From an uncultured Parabacteroides sp. (GTDB lineage Bacteria > Bacteroidota > Bacteroidia > Bacteroidales > Tannerellaceae): a stretch of DNA of 32,837 bases. The first letter of the stretch is position 1. Each line of letters begins with the position of its first letter. The DNA lies in the NCBI GenBank assembly GCA_946055095.1, contig CAMGEM010000006.1, positions 1 through 32,837 of the forward strand, in the 5' to 3' direction. The notes below the pieces were generated by a model. It searched no databases. It was not told where the DNA came from and saw nothing but the letters and a program-made list of their open reading frames with translations. Shown one piece after another: positions 16,619 to 31,682 of the stretch. The position numbers were made by a program, and so were the translations under genes.

Positions 16619-17524
16619 ATGAAAGAACAACCGCAAAAGCCCAGCTTGGAATCGACATTGAAGTCGATGGACACGGAAGAGTTTATCGATATCCATTTCT
16701 ATCGGCCGATTGGCTATCAGTGGGCTTTGTTTTTTAATAAGTTGGGTGTCACACCCAATGCCATCACCGTAGCCAGCATCTTCATCGGTATTGCCGCTGG
16801 TATCTGCTTTTATCCCAAAGATCTGATCACTAACGTGATCGGTATGCTTTTGCTCATCTGGGCAAATTCGTATGACAGCGCCGACGGACAGTTGGCACGA
16901 ATGACCGGACAGAAAAGCGCACTCGGACGTATTCTCGACGGTACGGCAGGCGACTTTTGGTTTATCGCCATCTACGCTGCTATCTGCCTCCGCTTGACAC
17001 CTGAATGGGGCATCTGGATCTGGCTCTTAGCCGCCGTGACCGGTTGGTTTCACAGCAAACAGGCAGCGATGGCCGACTATTACCGCAACATCCACCTCCT
17101 CTTTCTCAAAGGGAAATCAGGCAGTGAGCTCTCTCACTCTCCGCAGCTGAAAGAGAACTTCAAGAAGATGAGTTGGAAGAAGGATTTCATCTACAAGCTT
17201 TTCGAGATGTTCTACATCAACTACACGCAGGGGCAAGAGGCATGGACACCTCGTTTCCAAGCGATGATGCAACGCATCCGCACGAAGCACAACGGGCAAG
17301 CACCAACCGAGTTTTGCCAAGCGTTTCGCTTGCGCAGCCTTCCGTTGATGAAATACACCAACATGCTCTCGTTCAACACGCGTGTGATCGCCCTCTTCGT
17401 GAGCCTATTCATCGACATGCCTTGGCTCTACTTCGTGTTCGAGATGACCGTGCTCAATAGCATGTTGCTCTACATGATCCGTACCCACGAACGCATTTGC
17501 AAAGAAATGATTGATAGTTTATGA
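16619..17524 (+). CDS. CDP-alcohol phosphatidyltransferase family protein
   Basis: DSADGQLARMTGQKSALGRILDGTAGD matches D(x2)DG(x2)AR(x8)G(x3)D except that the final Asp spacing is x4 instead of x3; several TM helices. Confidence 0.88.
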   Translation: MKEQPQKPSLESTLKSMDTEEFIDIHFYRPIGYQWALFFNKLGVTPNAITVASIFIGIAAGICFYPKDLITNVIGMLLLIWANSYDSADGQLARMTGQKSALGRILDGTAGDFWFIAIYAAICLRLTPEWGIWIWLLAAVTGWFHSKQAAMADYYRNIHLLFLKGKSGSELSHSPQLKENFKKMSWKKDFIYKLFEMFYINYTQGQEAWTPRFQAMMQRIRTKHNGQAPTEFCQAFRLRSLPLMKYTNMLSFNTRVIALFVSLFIDMPWLYFVFEMTVLNSMLLYMIRTHERICKEMIDSL

Positions 17525-18234
17525 TTGAGACAACGAGAATAAAAGGTCTTCTTTTCGATTACGGAGGAACGATCGACAGCAACGGGCTCCATTGGGCAGA
17601 AGTTATCTGGCAGGCATACGAAGCCCTGCAAGTCCCTGTAAGCAAGGAATGTTTCCGGGAGGCATACGTCTATGGCGAACGTACCTTAGGTAAGAACCCG
17701 ATCGTGCAGCCACACCACACCTTCTTGGACATGCTGCGCTTGAAATGCAACCTGCAAATCCAATGGTTGCAACAGGAGGGACATCTTTCCATGGAAGTGA
17801 ACCCAGCGAATGAGATCGCAGAATGGTGCTATGCCTATGCGCACCAAGCAATCAACCAAGCACGCCCTATCTTGAGGCAGTTGGCAGAACGCTATCCCAT
17901 GGTGTTGGTTTCTAATTTCTATGGTAACATCGAGAGCGTGCTCCATGATTTCGAGTTGGACAACCTATTTGGTTCGATCGTAGAGTCGGCCGTGGTAGGT
18001 GTACGCAAACCGAATCCCGCCATCTTTCAGATGGGCGTTGATCGTCTATGTATGAAACCGGAAGAGGTGGTTGTGATCGGCGACTCGTACGATAAGGACA
18101 TCGTACCTGCCACCCAAATCGGCTGCCAAACCGTTTGGCTAAAAAGTATTGGCTGGGCACCCTATCGAGGTGATGAGACAGCGGATGCGGTCATCTCCGA
18201 CTTCCAGGAGCTGAAAGCCGTCTTTGGACTTTAG
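17521..18234 (+). CDS. HAD superfamily protein with atypical motif I (DYGGT)
   Basis: LLFDYGGTIDSNG motif I, VLVSNF motif II, KPNPAIF motif III, VVIGDSYDKDI motif IV; 4-bp ATGA overlap with the upstream gene. Confidence 0.88.
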   Translation: MIETTRIKGLLFDYGGTIDSNGLHWAEVIWQAYEALQVPVSKECFREAYVYGERTLGKNPIVQPHHTFLDMLRLKCNLQIQWLQQEGHLSMEVNPANEIAEWCYAYAHQAINQARPILRQLAERYPMVLVSNFYGNIESVLHDFELDNLFGSIVESAVVGVRKPNPAIFQMGVDRLCMKPEEVVVIGDSYDKDIVPATQIGCQTVWLKSIGWAPYRGDETADAVISDFQELKAVFGL

Positions 18235-18276
18235 TCCGCTATCCCTCTTTCCGCTCTCATGCTGGCTTGATCTATG

Positions 18277-18368
18277 TTTCATCGGAGAAGCAAGTAATAC
18301 TTCTCCGACAAAGTAAGTACTACTTCTTCGGCAAAGTAAGTATATCTTCTCCGAAATATCAGTAGTAC
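18277..18368. repeat. Degenerate tandem array, ~4 units of 23 bp
   Basis: Units at 18277-18299, 18300-18322 (CTTCTCCGACAAAGTAAGTACTA), 18323-18345 (CTTCTTCGGCAAAGTAAGTATAT), 18346-18368; includes the inverted pair TCGGAGAAG/CTTCTCCGA (18282-18308). Confidence 0.8.
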
Positions 18369-18383
18369 TGCTCAAAAAACGCC

Positions 18384-19025
18384 TTACCGCACGTAAGCCA
18401 CCAAGCCAGGGAGAGTAGGATGGTCGCAAAAGAGTGCTTCTTTACCACTCACACGAAACGTCATCAGCTTCCAGATGATCAGCATATCTCCTCCACCACC
18501 GATCACCATCAGCAAGGCGATTACAAACCATCCCCAATCATTCATCGCTATGGCGATAAATGCAGGCAGAAAGCCCACTATAATCGTTGGCATAGCCGCT
18601 CCCCAAATATATTGCCTCCGTGTCAACGGTTCGATGCAGGCGCAATAGGGCGTCAACATCGACCAGATCACGCCAAATTGAATGGCCTTGTAGCGATGTG
18701 GGGCAAACCATCCGAACACAGCCCCATGAATCAACTCATGCAACACCGTGAGTAGCAATACGATCGCCACCACAACCAAAGGGAAGAAGGAGGCTTCCGC
18801 CATGTCCCATCCTTCATAATCCATCGGTGTCAGCAGAGTGAACAACCCCATCAGTACCAATACAAAGGGCATCGACATAACAAAGCCTAACCAGTTCGCT
18901 TTCGAAACGCTCACCGTCAAGTCATGCCGCTCATAACCTTCCGCTATCCGACGCTCATTCTCCGCATCAAAAGCCTCTTTTCGGAGCAACTCTGCTTTCG
19001 ATAGTTTTCGTTCTTTTGTCATCAC
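18384..19025 (-). CDS. DUF3267-like membrane metalloprotease-type protein
   Basis: Hydrophobic helices with VLHELIHGAVFGWF (HExxH), YCACIEPLTRRQYIWGA. Confidence 0.75.
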   Translation of the reverse strand: MMTKERKLSKAELLRKEAFDAENERRIAEGYERHDLTVSVSKANWLGFVMSMPFVLVLMGLFTLLTPMDYEGWDMAEASFFPLVVVAIVLLLTVLHELIHGAVFGWFAPHRYKAIQFGVIWSMLTPYCACIEPLTRRQYIWGAAMPTIIVGFLPAFIAIAMNDWGWFVIALLMVIGGGGDMLIIWKLMTFRVSGKEALFCDHPTLPGLVAYVR

Positions 19026-29631: not shown

Positions 29632-29714
29632 GGGCAGTTACCAGAGTGGCCAAATGGGGCTGACTGTAACTCAGCTGGCTTACGCCTTCGGTGGTTCGAA
29701 TCCATCACTGCCCA
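29632..29714 (+). tRNA. tRNA-Tyr (anticodon GTA)
   Basis: Acceptor GGGCAGT/ACTGCCC, anticodon stem GCTGA-CTGTAAC-TCAGC, GGTTCGAATCC T-loop, long variable arm; CCA not encoded. Confidence 0.95.
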
Positions 29715-31536: not shown

Positions 31537-31590
31537 ACTAAGGGGAAAGTATCCATAAATAGGTATCTCTGCTTACAAGAGCAAGGGGCA

Positions 31591-31682
31591 GTCATTACTA
31601 TTGACGAAGGCCGGTCATTACTATTAACGAGGGTTAGTCATTACCAATGATGAGGGTCTGTCATTACTATTGACGAGGGTGC
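31591..31682. repeat. Degenerate tandem array, 4 units of exactly 23 bp
   Basis: GTCATTACTATTGACGAAGGCCG / GTCATTACTATTAACGAGGGTTA / GTCATTACCAATGATGAGGGTCT / GTCATTACTATTGACGAGGGTGC starting at 31591, 31614, 31637, 31660. Confidence 0.92.

Follow-up and report, generated by a model that had tools for sequence, protein, structure and literature searches.

Introduction

BrickBuilt, a minisatellite/MITE of Porphyromonas gingivalis (Klein 2015, PMC4596501), is built from a 23-nt brick, published as AGAYCATARTATCCTCTCRTRTG, and its repeats grow and shrink by whole 23-nt steps; it has been reported from P. gingivalis and P. gulae only (PMC4596501). By our own reading of the published sequence, the brick followed across a unit junction contains the 12-bp palindrome TCTCATATGAGA. 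The REP/BIME elements of the GTAG and CGTC families are short extragenic palindromes in alternating orientation, come in several families per genome and prefer convergent and unidirectional gaps (PMC3733652). REPs usually exceed 100 copies per genome per family (PMC2817692).

Here we describe an array of short palindromic sites between two convergent genes of an uncultured Parabacteroides sp. The window referred to throughout is the whole stretch of DNA that was analysed, 32 837 nt of contig CAMGEM010000006.1 (GCA_946055095.1).

Results

A palindromic array fills a convergent gap

The convergent gap at 18235–18383 is filled by an array of 23-bp pitch that includes a perfect inverted pair, TCGGAGAAG/CTTCTCCGA (Table 1). 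A preliminary description of this DNA had counted about four 23-bp units here, and this count was borne out: TRF reported a period of 23 at 18288–18354 and four sites were found. The inverted pair proved exact where it had been placed, and an independent gene caller agreed on both gene ends. Neither the self-match of the gap at shift 23 nor its best self-match at any shift from 8 to 59 was equalled in shuffled sequence (0/3000 shuffles each). The element is an 80–94-bp mosaic with four 11-bp near-palindromic sites, spaced 23, 23 and 22 bp apart. Folded as RNA, the gap scored better than shuffles on the two strands (z of −3.7 and −3.6). A simple scan for intrinsic terminators was negative at the array, with no T-run directly behind the hairpin, and a terminator with a T-tract was rejected; a known structured RNA was likewise rejected for want of an Rfam match at the array, the sole Rfam match in the window being a tRNA at 29632–29714. 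In P. distasonis An897 (L022), which has the same two genes, the gap holds no array and a different hairpin.

Table 1. Coordinates of the array, its parts and neighbouring features in the window.
Feature	Position	Strand	Remarks
HAD-family hydrolase, upstream convergent gene	17521..18234	+	Pfam PF00702, E=6e-16
80-bp core element TTTCATCGGAGAAG...CTTCTCCGAAA	18277..18356	.	imperfect inverted ends; between-copy homology at unrelated loci ends approximately there
Perfect 9-bp inverted pair	18282..18308	.	TCGGAGAAG at 18282-18290, CTTCTCCGA at 18300-18308; 9-nt loop
Site 1, AAGTAATACTT	18292..18302	.	near-palindrome
Site 2, AAGTACTACTT	18315..18325	.	near-palindrome
Site 3, AAGTATATCTT	18338..18348	.	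GAAGATATACTT reversed; GAAGATATACTT is the family's most frequent site
Site 4, CAGTAGTACTG	18360..18370	.	optional terminal site; present too in the C7 copy and in G017/G035 copies
DUF3267 putative zincin peptidase, downstream convergent gene	18384..19025	-	Pfam PF11667, E=1.6e-19
Second window array, unit AGGGTCAGTCATTACTATTGACG	31584..31680	.	TRF, 4.2 copies of 23 bp

The second array of the window has the same pitch and lies at the same type of junction, with an unrelated sequence. Within the window, both convergent junctions carry arrays, as had been stated, and no other gap does. The loose AGTnAnTACTA core said to link the two arrays did not survive scrutiny: the match covers 9 of 11 positions and was attained by shuffled units in 46/400 trials, so it is no evidence of common descent, which we rejected. 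Weak partial relatives of the second array occur elsewhere in the same MAG, at C5:14-59 and C37:633-660.

The window array is one copy of a dispersed Parabacteroides element

The array at 18 kb is a single copy of an intergenic Parabacteroides element that is short (about 80–94 bp), dispersed and of fixed 23-bp pitch. This family has four copies in the MAG itself (G000, a 2.47-Mb assembly, 84% complete, whose nearest proteins come from Parabacteroides) and about 20 more across other Parabacteroides genomes, mostly at unrelated loci. The recurrences within G000, on contigs C27, C88 and C7, are 87–97% identical over 34–60 bp. Matches with E ≤ 0.01 were found in five others of 39 same-genus genomes (e.g. 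9 in G016, 14 in G017 and 7 in G035), and the family is multi-copy in G016, G017, G028 and G035; matches numbered 4–14 per genome. Copies of an exact 14-base core pattern occurred in the same group of genomes; a reversed control pattern gave at most one match per genome. Copies at unrelated loci have approximately 80–90 bp in common but not their flanks (orthologous pairs excepted), and many have TTTTCAGAGAAGATATACTT...AAGTATATCTTCTCTGAAAA as possible terminal inverted repeats, imperfect in the window copy.

The building blocks are the 11-bp near-palindromes GAAGATATACTT and AAGTAGTACTT and their reverses, together with 12-bp linkers used either way round. Inside the copies the order and orientation of sites and linkers vary, at constant steps of 22–24 bp; the element is therefore a mosaic and not a simple tandem repeat. 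With respect to neighbouring genes, 22–24 copies were placed: approximately 6 convergent, 11 tandem (9 of them nearer the stop) and approximately 5 divergent, a looser placement than that of the dominant 22-bp family of G000 described below. Phages and viral contigs gave no match to the family, on which ground phage or viral carriage was rejected; three short matches were found in P. distasonis plasmids.

Three G016/G017 copies (L104, L108 and L117) have GGTAACCGCATC-like sequence on their flanks, in inverted form at L104 and L108; these flanks are possibly the ends of a larger MITE enclosing the array. At L105, L118 and L121 of G035, a second palindromic array (AGTATGTAAACATAAAAGGCAA..., ~22-bp pitch) adjoins the 23-bp element and is copied with it.

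Orthologous gaps examined for target-site duplication (filled versus empty) were not alignable across the element. Among three G016/G017 loci examined, none offered a clean empty site with a target duplication: at two of them synteny breaks off and another repeat lies across the break, and one is filled in both genomes. At L103/L241 and L112/L231, G017 arrays sit exactly at synteny breaks relative to G016, which has a different repeat family at the same gene end or nearby. Arrays may thus mark or promote junctions, although a claim would need more than two loci. The RAYT transposase domain (Y1_Tnp, PF01797) was absent from G000 (84% complete), G016, G017 and G028 and gave one hit in G035; missing in 4/5 carrier genomes, RAYT was rejected as the mobiliser.

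A 22-bp pitch recurs in unrelated sequences

We surveyed approximately 1.35 Mb, taken as parts of six Tannerellaceae genomes, scoring self-match segments at every shift in gaps of at least 50 bp. In G000 and G016 (0.83 Mb), 20 gaps scored at shift 22, 5 at 23, 3 at 24 and 15 at 44, with about one gap at each other shift and almost none in shuffles. With gaps from our own hexamer-based gene caller, whose calls are not standard annotation, and an array threshold that is one choice among those possible, the six genomes yielded 50 arrays with a best pitch of 21–24 bp (22 in 33 arrays, 21 in 8, 23 in 6 and 24 in 3); each remaining pitch from 15 to 35 was represented by 0–3 arrays. The peak lies at 22 bp, with 23 as a shoulder: the shared 23-bp period is, as had been supposed, no coincidence of two arrays, but the commonest pitch is 22 and not 23. 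The autocorrelation test proposed beforehand was run on sampled gaps; the peak was present, shuffled sequence had almost none, and the outcome that would have counted against the idea did not occur.

Approximately 8% of the sampled gaps of at least 50 bp bear an array (17% in one genome), with units repeated 2–8 times every 22 (21–24) bp. Coding pieces held practically no arrays in most samples, the exception being G019, where a cluster at all shifts reflected other repeats. Gaps in 150 kb of E. coli K-12 were devoid of arrays, and samples from other Bacteroidales families had a few, some of them low-complexity or coding repeats. Perfect palindromes, TGTTGATAATTATCAACA and AAACACCGGTGTTT among them, occur in G242, of a neighbouring genus, where 88 gaps yielded 15 arrays.

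The unit was palindromic at p ≤ 0.05 in 34 of the 50 arrays and at p ≤ 0.005 in 21, and complementarity was raised across arms of approximately 8 bp. Perfect even palindromes of ~16 bp occur among the units (e.g. TGACACCCGGGTGTCA, TGTTGATAATTATCAACA and AAACACGTACGTGTTT). The commonest form combines a ~16-bp palindrome with a 6-bp linker; the window family has 11 + 12 bp instead. Grouped at 14/16 identity, a similarity never seen among shuffled units, the 50 arrays fell into 36 sequence families, and what they have in common is therefore their architecture. The median RNA fold z over all arrays was −4.0/−3.6, a score that cannot tell RNA from DNA function because palindromes fold by construction.

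Two arrays were noted alongside. On C16 of G000 (L165:2064-2181), the pitch is 11 bp, half the usual 22, and the orientation of the unit (CTCTAAGGTAG) flips midway; in G388, from another Tannerellaceae genus, a long array of approximately 23 units at 21-bp pitch (CATATTTGATTGTTCACGCAT) occupies a divergent gap (L276:17714-18199).

Arrays are biased towards gene 3′ ends

Across the six genomes, arrays occupied 15/89 convergent versus 35/511 other gaps (17% versus 7%; odds ratio 2.8, p=0.003). Of the 22 arrays in tandem gaps, 18 were nearer the upstream stop (p=0.004). These p-values are optimistic, since dispersed copies are not independent and the tests treat them as if they were. The proposed enrichment at convergent junctions thus holds overall and in G000 alone (8/29 versus 3/158 other gaps, p=1.6e-5), but exclusivity does not: G016 showed no enrichment (3/28 versus 14/149), and tandem and some divergent gaps also carry arrays.

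One dispersed 22-bp family, with the unit ATGGGCAACGTTTTNCAAAACC and its first unit inverted, supplies five of the eight convergent arrays of G000 and thereby much of the convergent enrichment in that genome. It has approximately 17 distinct copies there, seven of them between convergent genes, and most lie no more than 30 bp from a stop codon. No transposase genes were found beside its copies, the neighbours being ordinary household genes. An example is L161:17120-17255 (C12), with ~16 other loci in G000; the family is also present in L021 and L022.

Discussion

The arrays are dispersed, mosaic in structure, fixed in pitch, palindromic and biased towards 3′ ends. The window array is a dispersed palindromic element and belongs to one of many unrelated families of the same architecture, which mostly lie near stop codons. 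We think it probable that it has spread in trans and that it serves, or is tolerated, as a bidirectional 3′-end element. Such elements would spread as non-autonomous repeats, REP/BIME- or MITE-like, moved in trans by some enzyme, and would be retained downstream of genes, where they may be harmless or helpful. In both directions, the palindromes might form hairpins in the transcript, curbing read-through or shielding 3′ ends, or might be bound as DNA by a dimeric protein. That the pitch is constant suggests, for whatever makes or binds the arrays, a shared footprint of ~22 bp.

Gyrase and IHF bind E. coli BIMEs, and the palindromes here could be operators for a DNA-binding or nucleoid protein that acts as a dimer; placed at intervals of about two helical turns between convergent genes, they would absorb supercoiling or mark domain borders. 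This is compatible with dispersal; the perfect even ~16 bp palindromes do resemble dimer sites, and both the pitch, close to two helical turns, and the convergent enrichment point the same way. We nevertheless regard it as rather unlikely, because no single sequence-specific protein can have all 36 unrelated sequences as its sites, because arrays also lie in tandem and divergent gaps, and because pure helical phasing would permit pitch peaks at ~11 or 32–33 bp, which were absent from the survey. That the arrays are plain minisatellites, produced by replication slippage at palindromes and having neither function nor mobility, would agree with the likeness of units within an array and with the expansion and contraction of BrickBuilt by whole 23-nt steps (PMC4596501). 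Slippage alone, however, cannot set 22 bp across unrelated sequences, nor does it explain the same 80–130-bp element at many loci, the 3′-end bias or the use of sites and linkers in both orientations, all of which makes this origin improbable.

The window element might also be a degenerate member of the BrickBuilt MITE, mobilized by an IS5-type transposase. Like BrickBuilt, which belongs to the same order, the window array consists of intergenic tandem 23-nt units without spacers, with predicted stem-loops and a palindrome over the unit junction (TCTCATATGAGA in the brick); the BrickBuilt copy number of ~19 can be counted as a further likeness to the window family. BrickBuilt differs in its own sequence, its 12-bp IS5-like TIRs and its long leader and tail, none of which the window element has, and in reaching 18 or more units versus 3–5. 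At ≤ 1 mismatch, AGAYCATARTATCCTCTCRTRTG was found in 0/393 Bacteroidales genomes including G000, a sample that may not include P. gingivalis; at ≤ 3 mismatches it was absent from the window, and the TIR GAGACCTTTGCA gave chance-level matches only, none near the window array. The absence of both brick and TIRs contradicts membership, which we rejected, and renders such a descent highly improbable.

The reading of the window array as a dispersed 3′-end element may extend further. When unrelated sequences share one pitch, a common cause must be sought, and we tentatively suggest, at less than even confidence, that Tannerellaceae harbour an array class defined by architecture and not by sequence (units of a ~16-bp palindrome and a 6-bp linker, repeated 2–8 times at 22-bp pitch and biased to 3′ ends), with dozens of independent families per clade, a common machinery of ~22-bp footprint that makes or binds them, and BrickBuilt as one instance. 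A search confined to PubMed Central found no description of the whole class; gut Bacteroidales are heavily studied, yet such arrays hold about 8% of sampled gaps. If the suggestion is true, P. gingivalis BrickBuilt would belong to a wider class.

The closest published relatives of these arrays are the BIME/REP arrays and BrickBuilt. Like REP/BIME elements, they are palindromic extragenic repeats in alternating orientations, with several families per genome, and lie preferentially in gaps between convergent or unidirectional genes (PMC3733652); they differ in having 11–16-bp palindromes at a fixed pitch of 22–23 bp. Their copy numbers, 4–14 matches per genome for the window family and ~17 for the largest G000 family, stay far below those usual for REPs. 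With MITEs they share a short, non-coding, dispersed form, and their imperfect inverted ends may be comparable; they differ in that neither a target-site duplication nor a parent IS was found and in that many families keep one internal pitch. Given the likeness in palindromes and placement but the lack of RAYT and the fewer copies, the window element behaves as a repeat of the BIME/MITE type, although we assign it to neither.
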